DNA of 64,000 nucleotides from Rhodospirillales bacterium (lineage in GTDB: Bacteria; Pseudomonadota; Alphaproteobacteria; ATCC43930; CGMCC-115725), in the NCBI GenBank assembly GCA_027315365.1, contig DAHUYF010000207.1, positions 1-64,000 of the forward strand, given 5' to 3'. The translations under genes and the position numbers were made by a program. Every line of letters begins with the position of its first letter. Position 1 is the stretch's first letter. Of this stretch, positions 17,552-22,572 are shown one piece after another. The notes beneath the pieces are model-generated. The model was given only the letters and a program-made list of their open reading frames with translations, had not been told where the DNA came from and ran no database searches.

Positions 17552-17570
17552 CCGTCCGGAACCTTCCTGC

Positions 17571-18539
17571 ATGACCCAGCGCCATCACAGCAAGTTCCTC
17601 ATCATCGGCTCGGGGCCCGCCGGATACACCGCGGCGATCTACGCCGCGCGCGCCAACCTGCAGCCGATTCTGGTCCAGGGGATGCAGGCCGGCGGCCAGC
17701 TCACCATCACCACCGATGTCGAGAACTATCCCGGCTTCGCCGAGGTGATCCAGGGGCCCTGGCTGATGGAGCAGATGCGGCAGCAGGCCGAGCATGTCGG
17801 CACCCGCATCATCACCGACCTGATCGTCGCCGCCGACCTGTCGAAGCGCCCCTTCACCTGCGTCGGCGACAGCGGCGACGTTTATGTCGCCGACACCGTC
17901 GCCATCTGCACCGGCGCGCAGGCGCGATGGCTCGGCATCGCCAGCGAAGAGGCGTTCCGCGGCCACGGCGTCTCCGCCTGCGCGACCTGCGACGGCTTCT
18001 TCTTTCGCGGCAAGGAGGTGGTGGTGGTCGGTGGCGGCAATACCGCGGTCGAGGAGGCCCTCTACCTCACCAACCATGCCGCCCGCGTCACCCTCGTGCA
18101 CCGCCGCGACCGGCTGCGCGCCGAGAAGATCCTGCAGGACCGGCTGTTCGCCAATCCCAAGATCCATGTCGTCTGGGACAGCGCCGTCGAGGAGATCCTC
18201 GGCGAGGGCACCCCGCCGCATGTCACGGGCGTGCGCATGGTCAACCTCAAGACGCGCCAGAGCTCGGTCGTGCCCTGCGACGGCTTCTTCGTCGCCATCG
18301 GCCATACCCCGGTCACCGATCTCTTCCGCGGCCAGCTGACGCTCGACGCCGAGGGCTACATCATCACCAAGCCCGATTCGACCGCCACCGACGTCCCCGG
18401 CGTCTTCGCCGCCGGCGACGTCCGGGACAAGATCTTCCGCCAGGCGGTGACCGCGGCGGGCATGGGGTGCATGGCGGCGCTCGAAGCCGAGAAGTTCCTC
18501 GCCGCCGAGGAAGCGGCGCCCCTCAGAGCGGCGGAGTAA
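17571..18539 (+). CDS. trxB: Thioredoxin reductase TrxB
   Basis: An NADPH-dependent flavoprotein that reduces thioredoxin. The 322-aa product has an N-terminal FAD site (IIGSGPAGYTAAIYAARA), the redox pair C137-A-T-C140 in ACATCDGFFF, an NADPH site (VVVVGGGNTAVEEALYL with HRRDRLRAEKI) and the C-terminal FAD motif PGVFAAGDVRDKIFRQAVTAAG. The start at 17571 gives the family-standard length. It is followed after 5 bp by a LysR regulator; trxB beside a LysR gene (lsrB/vtlR) is a conserved pair in rhizobia and Brucella. The unknown 634-aa gene ends 19 bp upstream and may be cotranscribed. Confidence 0.97.
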   Translation: MTQRHHSKFLIIGSGPAGYTAAIYAARANLQPILVQGMQAGGQLTITTDVENYPGFAEVIQGPWLMEQMRQQAEHVGTRIITDLIVAADLSKRPFTCVGDSGDVYVADTVAICTGAQARWLGIASEEAFRGHGVSACATCDGFFFRGKEVVVVGGGNTAVEEALYLTNHAARVTLVHRRDRLRAEKILQDRLFANPKIHVVWDSAVEEILGEGTPPHVTGVRMVNLKTRQSSVVPCDGFFVAIGHTPVTDLFRGQLTLDAEGYIITKPDSTATDVPGVFAAGDVRDKIFRQAVTAAGMGCMAALEAEKFLAAEEAAPLRAAE

Positions 18540-18544
18540 GCGGC

Positions 18545-19447
18545 GTGACCGGCATGGACTGGGACAAGCTGCGGGTCTTCCATGCGGTCGCCGAGGCCGG
18601 GAGCTTCACCCATGCCGGCGAGGCGCTGAACCTCAGCCAGTCGGCGGTGAGCCGCCAGATCAGCGCGCTCGAAGAGAGCCTGAGCGTGCCGCTCTTCCAT
18701 CGGCACGCGCGCGGGCTGATCCTGACCGAGCAGGGCGAGCTGCTCTATCGCACGGCGCGCGAGGTGTTCTCCAAGCTCGCCATGACCGAGGCGATGCTGA
18801 CGGAGTCGAAGGACCGGCCGAAGGGACCGCTCAAGGTGACCACCACCATCTCCTTCGGCTCGGCCTGGCTCACCCCGCGCATCCGCGAGTTCACCGACCT
18901 CTATCCCGAGATCCAGGTGAGCCTCGTCGTCGACGACACCGAACTCGACCTCTCGATGCGCGAGGCCGATGTCGCGATCCGCATGTCGCCGCCGCGCCAG
19001 CCGGATCTGGTGCAGCGCCATCTCATGACGACGCGTTACAACATCTACGCTTCGTCGGAATACCTGAAGCGCTTCGGCACGCCGCAGAAGCCCGAGGACC
19101 TCGACAAGCACCGCGTCATCGTCTACGGCCAGGACGCACGCCCGCCGGTGCGCAACATCAACTGGCTGTGGGAGGCGGGCGCGCGGCCCGGCTATGAGCG
19201 CCGGCCGATCTTCATGGTCAACAACGTCTACGGCATCCTGCGTGCGGTGGAGAGCGGCCTCGGCATCGCCGCGCTGCCCGATTACATGGCGCAGGAAACC
19301 ACCGATCTCGTGCGCATCCTGCCCGAACTCGCCGGCCCCGAGATCGAGGCCTATTTCGTCTATCCCGAAGAACTCCGCACCTCGAAGCGCATCGCCGTCT
19401 TCCGCGATTTCCTGCTGCGCAAGGTCGCCGAGGGCCGCAACAGCTAG
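18545..19447 (+). CDS. LysR-type regulator, LsrB/VtlR-like
   Basis: A 300-aa LysR-family regulator. The N-terminal winged helix-turn-helix (LRVFHAVAEAGSFTHAGEALNLSQSAVSRQISALE) is followed by a substrate-binding-like effector domain with FGSAWLTPRIREFTDLYPEIQ. The GTG at 18545 is chosen because GGAG (18533-18536) lies 8 nt upstream; ATG 18554 is three codons in. The position immediately after trxB matches the rhizobial lsrB and Brucella vtlR arrangement, where the regulator controls oxidative-stress and envelope genes and AbcR-type sRNAs. The protein has no cysteine at all, so direct thiol-based redox sensing is ruled out. Orthology rests on synteny and family only. Confidence 0.88.
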   Translation: MTGMDWDKLRVFHAVAEAGSFTHAGEALNLSQSAVSRQISALEESLSVPLFHRHARGLILTEQGELLYRTAREVFSKLAMTEAMLTESKDRPKGPLKVTTTISFGSAWLTPRIREFTDLYPEIQVSLVVDDTELDLSMREADVAIRMSPPRQPDLVQRHLMTTRYNIYASSEYLKRFGTPQKPEDLDKHRVIVYGQDARPPVRNINWLWEAGARPGYERRPIFMVNNVYGILRAVESGLGIAALPDYMAQETTDLVRILPELAGPEIEAYFVYPEELRTSKRIAVFRDFLLRKVAEGRNS

Positions 19448-19453
19448 CCCCGG

Positions 19454-20206
19454 CTAGAACAGCCGCCCGGCATGCGTCAGCACCGCCAGGCCGATCAGCG
19501 CGGCGAGAATCAGACCAAGAGAAAACCCCAGGCTCGCGCCGCGGTCGAGCCAGCCGCGGCGCGGCGCCGGCGACTGGTCGGCGGGCGCCGACTCCGCGGC
19601 GGAGTCGGCAGCCGCGTCCTCGGCCGAGACCGCGAGCTGGAAAAGCAGCGGCGCCGCGGCAGCGGCCGGTTCCTCGCGCACCGCCACGAGCCGGGCAAAG
19701 GGCGCCTCCTCGGCGGGAGCGGCGGCCGGCGCGTCACGCGCCGCGACCAACCGGGGAAGCGGCGCCGCGGCAACCGGCGGCACCAGCCGCGCGGCCACCC
19801 ACTCGACCCAATCCGCGGAGAGACTCGGACGCGGCAGCGCGGCGAACCGGCGTTCCACCGTCGCGGCAAGCTGATCGGCCTCGGCGCGGCGCTCGGCCAG
19901 CGCCAGCACCGGCAGCTCGCCGGAAAAGCGCAAGGGAAATCCGGCGTCGTCGAGCATGGCGCGAAACGCGGTGTGCGCCTCTTCCGGGCTCGCCTCCTCT
20001 CCAGCATCGAGCAAGGCAATAAGCGCGACGCCGCGGGCGGGATGGAGGGCGACCAGATCGATATAGCCCTCCTCGCCGCCGACGCGGACGATGGCCGGCG
20101 ACACGCAGCGCCATCCCGGGATCAACGTCGGCGGCGGCGGCTCCCGCCGCTCGCCCCGGTCGGGCTTTTCTCCGCTTTCGACAGCATCCAGCACGGGCAG
20201 TTCCAT
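19454..20206 (-). CDS. Hypothetical protein with C-terminal membrane anchor
   Basis: An unrecognised 250-aa protein. The first about 160 residues are soluble (MELPVLDAVESGEKP, WRCVSPAIVRVGGEEGYIDLVALHPARGVALIALL) and resemble a restriction-endonuclease-like or NERD-type fold, although no catalytic set is visible. An Ala/Pro-rich low-complexity stretch (about 165-220) follows, then a single hydrophobic segment (LGFSLGLILAALIGLAVLTHA) ends the protein, so it is probably tail-anchored. The start at 20206 follows a GGGG stretch; the frame is open 26 codons further upstream. It ends 6 bp from the convergent LysR gene. No function can be assigned. Confidence 0.65.
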   Translation of the reverse strand: MELPVLDAVESGEKPDRGERREPPPPTLIPGWRCVSPAIVRVGGEEGYIDLVALHPARGVALIALLDAGEEASPEEAHTAFRAMLDDAGFPLRFSGELPVLALAERRAEADQLAATVERRFAALPRPSLSADWVEWVAARLVPPVAAAPLPRLVAARDAPAAAPAEEAPFARLVAVREEPAAAAAPLLFQLAVSAEDAAADSAAESAPADQSPAPRRGWLDRGASLGFSLGLILAALIGLAVLTHAGRLF

Positions 20207-20291
20207 GGCCAACCCCGCGGTTGCCGACGGGCAGGTGACGAACACCGCTCGCGCGATTTGGTTGCGCCGGCGTGCGGTGCCCACAGGGATG

Positions 20292-20377
20292 CAGTTTTTG
20301 CAACTGTGCCACCAAATATTCCCGTTGGCCTTTTCATCCCCGCCGCCGCATTTTGCAACGCAGCGGAATTTGCTGCG
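20292..20377. promoter_or_regulatory. Two dyads upstream of the small-RNA candidate
   Basis: CAGTT-TTTGC-AACTG (20292-20306) and CGCAGC-GGAATTT-GCTGCG (20359-20377) are inverted repeats. They lie in the gene-free stretch between the minus-strand hypothetical gene and the sRNA candidate. Dyads of this size suit LysR-type or similar dimeric regulators, and the neighbouring LysR gene is an obvious candidate ligand. Binding is inference. The stretch 20207-20423 otherwise holds only short AT-rich patches that may carry promoters. Confidence 0.35.
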
Positions 20378-20423
20378 GCGACGTCGGGTCGCAGCGTGGA
20401 TTTCCGGACCGATAGGTTCGGGA

Positions 20424-20509
20424 AGAGGGTCTTCGGATCCTTACGTCTCCCAGACGTGAAGCCTCCCTGTTCATACTGGCCGGAGCCCACGGGCTCCGGC
20501 TTTTTTTTT
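20424..20509 (+). ncRNA. Candidate AbcR/alpha-r15-like trans-acting small RNA
   Basis: Three stacked hairpins end in an intrinsic terminator with no coding gene in front of it. Hairpin 1 (about 20425-20442) has a UUCG tetraloop. Hairpin 2 has an 8-bp stem (20441-20448 with 20452-20459, one G-U) presenting TCCCA in its loop. A single-stranded stretch with CCTCCCTG (20463-20470) follows, then hairpin 3 with a 9-10 bp stem and nine T residues. Exposed CUCCC motifs that pair with ribosome-binding sites, three stem-loops and location near a trxB-lsrB pair are features of AbcR sRNAs in rhizobia. The 5' end is uncertain and may lie somewhat upstream; hairpins 1 and 2 compete for two bases. Identity as AbcR is by analogy. 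Confidence 0.55.
20479..20509 (+). terminator. Strong Rho-independent terminator
   Basis: GCCGGAGCC pairs with GGCTCCGGC (20479-20487 with 20492-20500) around a CACG loop, followed by nine T (20501-20509). It reads on plus, where no protein gene precedes it for over 1 kb, so it most likely ends the small-RNA candidate. Confidence 0.88.
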
Positions 20510-20614
20510 GCGTTGCCGCGGCAAGCGGCCGGGCGACGCCACCCCGAGCCGCGACGCGCTTTACAGCTCCGAACGCGCATGGGAAGCTTTACCTCAAGTG
20601 CCGTGAGCGCAGCA

Positions 20615-20632
20615 GGCGGGCTCCAGCCCGCC
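20615..20632. promoter_or_regulatory. Hairpin next to the ribosome-binding site of the ThDP enzyme gene
   Basis: GGCGGGCT and AGCCCGCC (20615-20622, 20625-20632) form a perfect 8-bp palindrome ending 3 bp before the AGGGGGAG Shine-Dalgarno at 20636-20643. In the message it could occlude or insulate the initiation region. There is no T-run, so termination is unlikely. Confidence 0.4.
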
Positions 20633-20649
20633 GCCAGGGGGAGATGCCG

Positions 20650-22572
20650 ATGGCGCGAGACGTTCCTTCGCCCGGCCTTCGTCGACGCAGCTTCCTCAAG
20701 GGTGCGAGCCTTGCCGGCGCCGCGGCGCTGAGCCCGGCCGCCGCTCCCGCCCAACCGCGGGCGCCGCAGCGCGCCGCGCCGGCGCCCGATCCGGCGGCGG
20801 AGACCGCGCCGCCATCCTCCGATCCGGCGACGCAGACCAGCAGCGGCGGCGACTTCATGGTCGAGGTGCTGAAATCGCTCGACTTCGACTACGTGGCGCT
20901 CAATCCCGCATCGAGCTTCCGCGGGCTGCAGGAAGCGATCATCAATTACGGCGGGAATCGCCGGCCCGAGCTCATCACCTGCACCCATGAGGAGATCGCC
21001 GCCTCGATGGCGCAGGGCTACGCCAAGATGGCGGGCAAGCCGATGGGCGTGCTGGCGCACGGCACGGTCGGGCTGCAGCACGCCTCGATGGGGCTCTACA
21101 ACGCATTCTGCGACAAGGTGCCGGTCTACGTCATGATCGGCAACATCCTGGCGGCGGAGAAACGCGCGCCGCTGGTGGAATGGGCGCATTCGGCCCAGGA
21201 TCCCGCCGCCTTCGTCCGCGACTTCGTCAAATGGGACGATCAGCCGCAGTCGCTGCAGCATTTCGCCGAATCGGCGGTGCGCGCCTACAAGCTGGCGGTG
21301 ACGCCGCCGATGGGCCCGGTGCTGCTGTCGCTCGACGCCGAGCTACAGGAAAATCCGATCGCCGACCGCGAGGCGCTGCACATCCCGAAGCGGCAGCGCA
21401 GCAGCCTGCCGCAGGGCGACGGCGCCGCGGTGGCCGAGGCGGCACGCCTGCTCGCCGCCGCCGACAGCCCGGTGCTCATCGTCGACCGCCTGGTGCGCAG
21501 CCAGGCCGGCATGGACCAACTGGTCGAGCTGGCGGAACTGCTGCAATGCGCGGTGATCGACCAGGGCGGTCGCGCCAACTTCCCCTGGCGCCACCCGCTC
21601 AACCACAGCGGCCGGGCGCGCAGCATCCTGGCGCAAGCCGATCTCGTGCTCGGCATCGAGCTCAACGACTACTGGGGCGCGCTCCACGCCTATAGCGACC
21701 GCGTCCGGCGCCACGCGGAGCCGCTGACGCAGCCCGGCGTGAAGACGCTGAGCCTCGGCACGCACGATCTGTTCACCAAGGCCAACTACCAGGAGTTCGA
21801 GCGCTTCCCCGACGTCGATCTCGCCATCGCCGGCGACGGCGAAGAGACGCTGCCGATGCTCGTCGAGGCGGTGAAGCGGCAGGCCGATCCCGGCCGCCGC
21901 AGCGTCTACGAGGCGCGCGGCAAGAAGCTCGCCGCGGCGCATCAGGCGATGATCGAACAGCTGCGCCGCGACGCCGCCATCGGCTGGGAGGCGAGCCCGA
22001 TCACGCTTGGCCGGCTCTGCGCCGAACTCTGGGAGCAGCTGCGCCAGGAGGACTGGTCGCTGGTCGGCAACGGCATCGGCGTGTTCTGGCCGCAGCGTCT
22101 CTGGGCGGCGGATAAATGCTACCGCTACGCCGGCAATTCCGGCGGCTTCGGCGTCGGCTACAACGCGCCCGGCGCGCTCGGCGCGGCACTGGCCAATCGC
22201 GCGCATGGACGCCTCAGCGTCGCCATCCAGGGCGACGGCGATCTCATGTTCGCGCCGGGAACGCTGTGGACCGCGGCGCATCACCGCATCCCCATCCTCT
22301 ACGTCATGCACAACAACCGCGCCTACCACCAGGAATTCATGTTCGTCGAGAACATGGCGGGGCGCCACATGCGCGGCGTCGCCAACGCCCATATCGGCAC
22401 GACGCTGCGCGATCCCGAGATCGACTTCGCGGCCGTCGCCAAGGGCTTCGGCGTCTACAGCGAGGGCCCGATCAGCGATCCCAACGAGCTCGCTCCGGCG
22501 CTGCAGCGCGCGATCGCGGTGGTAAAGCGCGGCCAGCCGGCGCTGCTCGACACTATCGTCGAGCCCCGGTGA
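20650..22572 (+). CDS. Tat-exported thiamine-diphosphate-dependent enzyme
   Basis: A 640-aa member of the acetolactate-synthase/pyruvate-oxidase family. It begins with a twin-arginine signal (RRRSFLKGAS, then an Ala-rich hydrophobic stretch) and a Pro/Ala linker to about residue 70. The PYR domain has the catalytic Glu in THEEIAASMAQGYA. The central domain follows, and the PP domain carries the Mg/ThDP motif GDGDLMF ending in HNN. Tat export fits a protein that must fold around its cofactor in the cytoplasm. ATG 20650 lies 6 nt after AGGGGGAG; ATG 20644 is too close. A cytochrome c gene follows by 11 bp, suggesting periplasmic oxidation of a 2-oxo acid. The substrate is unknown. Confidence 0.85.
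   Translation: MARDVPSPGLRRRSFLKGASLAGAAALSPAAAPAQPRAPQRAAPAPDPAAETAPPSSDPATQTSSGGDFMVEVLKSLDFDYVALNPASSFRGLQEAIINYGGNRRPELITCTHEEIAASMAQGYAKMAGKPMGVLAHGTVGLQHASMGLYNAFCDKVPVYVMIGNILAAEKRAPLVEWAHSAQDPAAFVRDFVKWDDQPQSLQHFAESAVRAYKLAVTPPMGPVLLSLDAELQENPIADREALHIPKRQRSSLPQGDGAAVAEAARLLAAADSPVLIVDRLVRSQAGMDQLVELAELLQCAVIDQGGRANFPWRHPLNHSGRARSILAQADLVLGIELNDYWGALHAYSDRVRRHAEPLTQPGVKTLSLGTHDLFTKANYQEFERFPDVDLAIAGDGEETLPMLVEAVKRQADPGRRSVYEARGKKLAAAHQAMIEQLRRDAAIGWEASPITLGRLCAELWEQLRQEDWSLVGNGIGVFWPQRLWAADKCYRYAGNSGGFGVGYNAPGALGAALANRAHGRLSVAIQGDGDLMFAPGTLWTAAHHRIPILYVMHNNRAYHQEFMFVENMAGRHMRGVANAHIGTTLRDPEIDFAAVAKGFGVYSEGPISDPNELAPALQRAIAVVKRGQPALLDTIVEPR

Follow-up and report, generated by a model that had tools for sequence, protein, structure and literature searches.

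The plus-strand segment at positions 20424-20509 of the 64,000-nucleotide stretch of Rhodospirillales DNA analysed here (the window) probably represents a new family of small RNAs (sRNAs) that is wired like the LsrB-AbcR system but occurs outside the Rhizobiales: a trans-acting RNA of approximately 149 nt that would be activated by a LysR-type regulator and would act as an anti-Shine-Dalgarno (anti-SD) RNA on importer mRNAs. According to this proposal, which we draw from comparisons of sequences, the LsrB/VtlR-orthologous LysR protein encoded just upstream together with trxB would bind an ATGC-N7-GCAT-N3-YG operator, whose centre lies roughly 64 bp upstream of the start site, and would thereby activate the sRNA gene. 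The RNA would then expose two C-rich anti-SD stretches, the loop of a CUCCCA hairpin and the single-stranded linker CCUCCCUG, that could pair with GGGAG(G) at the ribosome-binding sites of many mRNAs, chiefly those for substrate-binding proteins (SBPs) of ABC importers. Such pairing would block translation, with Hfq probably bound at the U-rich terminator.

LsrB has been described as unique to the Rhizobiales (PMC11975290, with a tree of few species) and alpha-r15 as confined to the Rhizobiaceae and Brucellaceae (PMC3712013), while the order trxB-vtlR has been noted as conserved in the class (PMC7486931). Our sample contains dozens of families, including those of Azospirillum, Roseomonas, Reyranella and Kiloniella, in which the trxB-lsrB-sRNA order and the same operator recur. 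The nutrient-uptake control circuit of plant symbionts and Brucella is therefore probably far older and wider than described. The locus bears on the evolution of global transporter control in the Alphaproteobacteria, and it offers a conserved RNA family together with a regulator-operator-sRNA hypothesis that is open to test in cultivable non-pathogens.

Predicted structure and extent of the RNA

The original prediction described three hairpins, one of them with TCCCA in its loop, an unpaired stretch and a stem of 9-10 bp followed by nine T. Both sequence and fold agree with this description, the loop motif being CUCCCA in full and the unpaired stretch CCUCCCUG. Folded alone, 20424-20509 forms two adjoining hairpins followed by an unpaired GAAGCCUCCCUGUUCAUACU and then a terminator, whose 10-bp stem runs into nine T; the minimum free energy is -36.5 kcal/mol (z = -3.63), a stability that none of 200 dinucleotide shuffles reached. 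The hairpin at 20425-20442 (+), GAGGGUC-UUCG-GAUCCUU (AGAGGGUCUUCGGAUCCU), has GGGUCUUCGGACCC-like counterparts in relatives, and a hairpin of at least -4 kcal/mol was found at this position in 125 of 141 loci versus 60 after shuffling. The adjoining hairpin at 20443-20457 (+), ACGUCU-CCC-AGACGU (ACGUCUCCCAGACGU), which is seen in the fold and in the conservation, displays CUCCCA as the putative first anti-SD motif; all three loop C have an unpaired probability of 1.0, and the flanking U and A are mostly paired. The putative second anti-SD motif, or seed, is the single-stranded CCUCCCUGUU at 20462-20471 (+), defined by the fold and by the conservation of CCTCCCTG. The intrinsic terminator at 20478-20509 (+) consists of a 10-bp stem, GGCCGGAGCC-CACG-GGCUCCGGCU (20478-20501), and nine U (20501-20509).

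As to the span of the feature, the predicted hairpins are present, but a fourth conserved hairpin lies directly upstream at 20401-20424 (+; UUUCCGGACC-GAUA-GGUUCGGGAA), and relatives form the same hairpin with other letters. Together with the promoter geometry, this hairpin places the likely 5' end near 20361. The segment 20424-20509 is thus likely the 3' half of an sRNA gene at 20361-20509 (+) with a predicted transcript of about 149 nt rather than 86 nt, bounded by the box/promoter geometry on one side and the terminator on the other. The CUCCCA hairpin is then not the 5'-most hairpin of the RNA. In the 86-nt form the linker CCUCCCUGUU has an unpaired probability of about 0.9. The predicted 149-nt transcript, by contrast, has this linker paired, CCUCCC being engaged with the 5' end, so that its exposure would require processing or a shorter RNA, the help of Hfq, or a different fold. 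A protein-coding reading was also considered, as the plus-strand ORFs 19472-20731 and 20091-20459 cross the site; it was rejected because conservation in the core is that of an RNA sequence, and because the terminator stem varies with compensation.

Conservation and distribution

To gauge conservation we relied on loci selected by their LysR gene, because loci retrieved with an exact 19-mer had themselves been chosen by conserved sequence. From across the class we sampled 100 LysR loci, in most cases one or two from each family, whether or not the RNA was present. In 57 of them a near-identical core, CGUCUCCCAGACGUGAAGCCUCCCUGUU followed by the terminator and with no more than 3 mismatches, lies directly downstream of the orthologous trxB-lysR pair. 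The loops are conserved in the 51 independently sampled loci with a detectable terminator, of which 46 retain CTCCC in the loop and 49 retain CCTCCCTG. The terminator stems vary in their letters yet still pair in relatives (GCCGGGCC/GGCCCGGC, GCCGCTGATC/GATCAGCGGC and GCCCCCGGC/GCCGGGGGC).

The genome from which the window derives (G000) holds a single copy of the RNA, by DNA search as well as with our model R1, which scores 92.3 bits at 20417-20508. DNA search detected the RNA in 35 of 61 relatives, with 84-95% identity in genomes of the same family, and the exact 19-mer AGACGTGAAGCCTCCCTGT matched at least 119 stretches in the GTDB species collection; the matches listed include Azospirillum, Roseomonas, Reyranella, Kiloniella, Acidiphilium, Magnetovibrio, Nisaea and Caedibacter, and many further ones listed are unnamed Alphaproteobacteria. 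R1 found matches in 58 of 142 genomes of the class; by comparison of coordinates, 44 of the 58 are located downstream of the LysR gene on the same strand, at a distance of up to about 1 kb. R1 is mostly a sequence model with one hairpin, since the CUCCCA hairpin (6 pairs, one of them with a double change) was all that RNAalifold recovered from a MAFFT alignment of 43 sequences, in which terminators of differing length were misaligned. No Rhizobiales were recognised among the sampled genomes. The family thus appears to occur mainly in the Rhodospirillales sensu lato, lies outside Rfam and is apparently uncatalogued; our literature search found no paper describing this RNA.

Linkage to trxB and an LsrB/VtlR-type regulator gene

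Upstream of the RNA lie trxB for thioredoxin-disulfide reductase (17568-18539, +; NCBIfam TIGR01292, 405 bits, above the cut-off) and a lysR gene (18554-19447, +) with the Pfam domains HTH_1 and LysR_substrate. The LysR protein has PDB 9hh1 as its nearest solved structure (E 5.5e-96) and is 49.3% identical to Sinorhizobium meliloti LsrB, the sole match at E<=1e-60 in a 3.7 Mb S. meliloti record; in return, the own genome contains a single match to the window LysR, and the HTH is nearly unchanged. In most orthologous loci trxB stands upstream of lysR. Judged by reciprocal best match, trxB linkage and conserved HTH, the protein is an orthologue of LsrB/VtlR, and the trxB-lsrB-type locus that had been proposed is indeed what the sequence offers. 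The window LysR has no cysteines, in which it differs from the LsrB of the Rhizobiaceae, which has 3, and cysteines are absent from 59 of 105 LysR/LsrB orthologues, so that the thiol-based redox sensing known from Agrobacterium LsrB cannot be general.

The regulator had been placed about 950 bp from the RNA, and lysR indeed ends at 19447, 977 bp upstream. This gap is due to the insertion of a hypothetical gene on the opposite strand (19454-20284, -; no Pfam or NCBIfam match; divergent from the sRNA), which is lineage-specific and occurs in only 3 of 149 sRNA loci. As this intervening ORF is on the minus strand, the statement that no coding gene precedes the RNA on its own strand holds. The start of the inserted gene abuts the LysR box at 20289, and the two may share an operator.

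In tblastn searches with the window TrxB and LysR, LysR was located just upstream of the RNA on the same strand in 121 of the 149 sRNA loci, with TrxB preceding LysR in 92; likewise, 93 of the loci retrieved with the 19-mer extend 1.5 kb or more upstream of the RNA, and 77 of these have a same-strand LysR no farther than 1.3 kb upstream. Since most genomes carry the RNA 130-300 nt past the lysR stop codon on the same strand, read-through could reach it, and it might merely form the 3' UTR of the trxB-lysR mRNA together with its terminator, kept for ending transcription and lacking a separate sRNA function. We consider this very improbable: letters of the loop and the linker are conserved and not the stem alone, lysR is separated from the RNA by a spaced palindrome and a putative promoter, the window has an opposite-strand gene and 977 bp in between, the RNA lies 2.8 and 4.8 kb downstream in genomes G077 and G073, and some copies are at other places altogether. 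A separate sRNA gene remains our preferred reading.

Cores that have no LysR neighbour within reach were seen in L054, L073, L075, L078, L087, L095, L096, L107, L110, L124, L130, L144, L145 and L149; these are second copies or relocated genes. As to the genes on the other side of the RNA, an MsrP-like gene (periplasmic methionine-sulfoxide reductase) lies convergently just after lysR-sRNA in L203 (2824-3666, -) and L278 (3404-4435, -) and also in L211, L229, L231 and L250, all of these assignments having been made by eye; the order trxB-lysR-sRNA-msrP in several families makes for a redox-themed neighbourhood. In the window, the RNA is followed by a gene for a thiamine-diphosphate enzyme with a twin-arginine-like leader (RRRSFLKGASLAG; 20644-22572, +) and then by a small c-type cytochrome gene; the enzyme gene adjoins the sRNA only within the same genus.

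A probable LysR-type operator and putative promoter precede the RNA

Of 141 de-duplicated intergenic regions separating lysR from the RNA, 90 contain the palindrome ATGC-N7-GCAT, versus 1.1 in shuffled sequences, and the spacings N5, N6 and N8 occur at chance level. In longer form the palindrome reads GCAT-N3-YG-N3-T, corresponding to the published box through which VtlR/LsrB drives abcR1 (GCAT-N3-TG-N3-T; PMC7486931; PMC8844928), and the form GCAT-N3-TG-N3-T is present in 30 of the 141 regions versus 3.2 after shuffling. When aligned on the box, the regions give the consensus AGCYATGCRN5YGCAT[GA]GC[TC]GNNNT, and in relatives two blocks follow downstream of the box, TGG at 37 nt and a CCTATnTT-like one at 58-65 nt. 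The operator box goes together with the sRNA (43:15 with the sRNA, 9:33 without it; p = 1.6e-7).

The window itself has a probable LsrB/VtlR-type operator at 20289-20303 (+), ATGC-AGTTTTT-GCAA (ATGCAGTTTTTGCAA), which is degenerate with one mismatch to the consensus ATGC-N7-GCAT. The conserved TGG and TAT-T columns of the relatives point to a putative promoter at 20325-20354 (+), with a -35 element at approximately 20325-20330 (TTGGCC) and a -10 element at approximately 20347-20354 (CGCATTTT), although the match of the window's own -35 and -10 is weak. In the alignment of box and promoter, the centre of the box falls near -64 relative to the putative start, similar to the position of LsrB at the rhizobial abcR1 promoter (-61 to -49; PMC8844928). 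The same palindrome with the same spacing precedes abcR1 in S. meliloti (ATGCGCAAACGGCATGGCTGTCAT) and Rhizobium leguminosarum (ATGCAGAACACGCATGACTGGCAT). It is thus probable that a switch sequence for the LysR regulator is carried next to the sRNA gene.

Complementary sites in the leaders of transporter genes

The own genome encodes 57 LivK-type (PF13458) SBPs in 5 Mb. In a set of 54 SBP genes (LivK-type plus some SBP_bac_5, with gene starts called heuristically), GGGAGG is present in the ribosome-binding regions of 19, as compared to 12 of 216 other genes (p = 7e-8), and the longer AGGGAGG in 12 SBP leaders as compared to 6 of the others. AGGAGG, which is the best match to the 16S rRNA, is not enriched (2 of 54 versus 17 of 216), and the ratio of GGGAGG to AGGAGG is 19:2 in SBP leaders versus 12:17 in the others (p = 4e-4). 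The 19 leaders with GGGAGG are not recent copies of one another, their top ungapped identity being 57%. Genome G091 shows the enrichment of GGGAGG at SBP leaders as well (p = 2e-4), and there TGGGAG, the complement of the loop motif, is also enriched (5 of 23 versus 1 of 164; p = 1e-4); in the own genome TGGGAG is not significantly enriched (1 of 54 versus 0 of 216).

The original prediction that CCUCCC would pair with ribosome-binding sites is thus upheld as far as the enrichment of GGGAGG at SBP leaders goes, but the attribution to this particular RNA is weakened by genome G062, which has no R1 match and is nevertheless GGGAGG-enriched at SBP genes (3 of 10 versus 1 of 149). The bias may therefore stem from other sRNAs with CCUCCC or be a general trait of SBP genes. 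Moreover, the flanks of the seed add no detectable specificity in the own genome, where flank-shuffled seeds were equally good in 16 of 60 cases, and none could be demonstrated beyond the CCUCCC core. These data support the view that GGGAG(G)-marked transporter leaders are a target class of CCUCCC sRNAs in the Alphaproteobacteria, and not of the window RNA alone.

Relation to known families of anti-SD RNAs

The closest Rfam models are SorX (RF02784; 26.0 bits, E 7.7e-4) and suhB/MmgR (RF00519; 26.1 bits), both of which score below the curated gathering scores of 46.6 and 41, respectively; even the best SorX score of an orthologue, 40.9 bits in L227, remains below 46.6. These scores could indicate that the RNA is a member of the SorX/SorY or the MmgR-SisA (alphaR8, suhB) anti-SD sRNAs that chanced to anchor at trxB-lysR. 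SorX and SorY (RF02651) of Rhodobacter sphaeroides share its CCUCCCUGUUnnACUUGGCC-terminator 3' end, with CCUCCCUGUUnnACUU and the terminator in common to SorX and suhB, and SorX represses a transporter gene, potA (PMC9438474), which resembles the probable targets here. In MmgR/SisA-D a weak hairpin and the terminator flank a single-stranded CCUCCCU; these RNAs exert anti-SD action on TonB-receptor mRNAs in Caulobacter and belong to the same Rfam clan as ar15. The neighbourhoods speak against membership, which we regard as unlikely: SorX is cut from the 3' UTR at the end of an OmpR-type gene (PMC9438474), and alphaR8 typically lies beside an N-formylglutamate amidohydrolase gene (PMC12559287), neither being at trxB-lysR. 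In addition, the conserved CUCCCA hairpin ACGUCUCCCAGACGU is absent from the SorX and suhB consensus sequences as aligned, and MmgR/SisA-D are set apart by a core UUUCCUCCCU rather than GAAGCCUCCCUGUU.

The resemblance to AbcR1/AbcR2 with LsrB/VtlR of the Rhizobiaceae and Brucella extends over the whole locus. The gene order is trxB-vtlR-abcR1-abcR2 in Agrobacterium tumefaciens (PMC7486931), and we confirmed trxB-lsrB-abcR1-abcR2 in records of S. meliloti and R. leguminosarum; the window RNA likewise lies next to lsrB/vtlR, downstream of trxB. Besides this order, the systems share an orthologous LysR with conserved HTH, the ATGC-N7-GCAT-N3-TG-N3-T box and ABC-transporter genes as probable targets. 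AbcR RNAs have two anti-SD regions, aSD1 in the 5' loop and aSD2 in the linker (PMC8844928), and the motif M1 of Brucella AbcR is CUCCCA (PMC5461406). The window RNA has M1 in a hairpin loop, though not that of its first predicted hairpin, and a second C-rich unpaired motif before the terminator. That it works like AbcR is well supported.

Membership of AbcR/alpha-r15, as originally predicted, was rejected. The ar15 covariance model (RF02345; gathering score 40 bits) found no match in the window and none at E<=10 over 19.9-20.9 kb or at the locus in 10 genomes. A run over 152 genomes of the class gave no match either, and with zero matches in any genome it is weak on its own. On true AbcR loci, the ar15 model reaches 97-127 bits, including two matches of 106-127 bits after lsrB in S. 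meliloti and R. leguminosarum, and in the reverse search R1 had no match on five rhizobial AbcR loci at E<=5. In AbcR, the motif M2, GUUCCC(CUC), lies between stem-loops 1 and 2 and is followed by SL2, whereas SL2 is missing from the window family and the linker (CCUCCCUGUU as compared to GUUCCCCUC in AbcR; GCCUCCCUGUU rather than GUUCCCCUCUG) runs straight into the terminator. The window family is also usually single-copy and has extra 5' hairpins. Hence, of the suggested homologous system outside the Rhizobiales, the wiring, the operator and CUCCCA are borne out, but common descent of the RNA with AbcR is unproven, since the models are negative both ways.

A Rhodospirillales orthologue of abcR1 that has diverged past detection by covariance models is conceivable, if somewhat doubtful. 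It would account for the same place, the orthologous regulator, the same operator, CUCCCA in a hairpin loop with a second C-rich linker, and the common Rfam clan (CL00108) of ar15 and suhB, the latter scoring 26 bits here; the failure of both models and the missing SL2 with its differing linker weigh against it. More tentatively than the new family itself, and at somewhat less than even chances, we suggest that a module of LsrB/VtlR and an anti-SD sRNA is ancestral to much of the Alphaproteobacteria, such that LysR, operator and adjacent C-rich sRNA were co-inherited, rhizobial AbcR is derived, and SorX and alphaR8 are relatives that left the locus. If so, the regulator's original signal would not have been thiol oxidation, as cysteines are few or absent in most orthologues outside the Rhizobiaceae.

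Two to three tandem sRNAs follow lysR in L216 (approximately 2279-2889) and L203 (approximately 2545-2825), two loci from two genomes (G207 and G303) of one family, each copy with a CUCCCA-type loop, CCUCCCUGUUAGACUUGCC and a terminator. Their tandem arrangement, as in abcR1/abcR2, and the loop of the middle copy in L216 (CUUCCUCCCAGUU), which is close to that of R. leguminosarum AbcR1 (UUUUCCUCCCAGUU), would fit descent from an AbcR RNA. The loops resemble AbcR loops and the 3' parts match the window family, so these tandems are possible intermediates between the two, although C-rich loops can arise independently.
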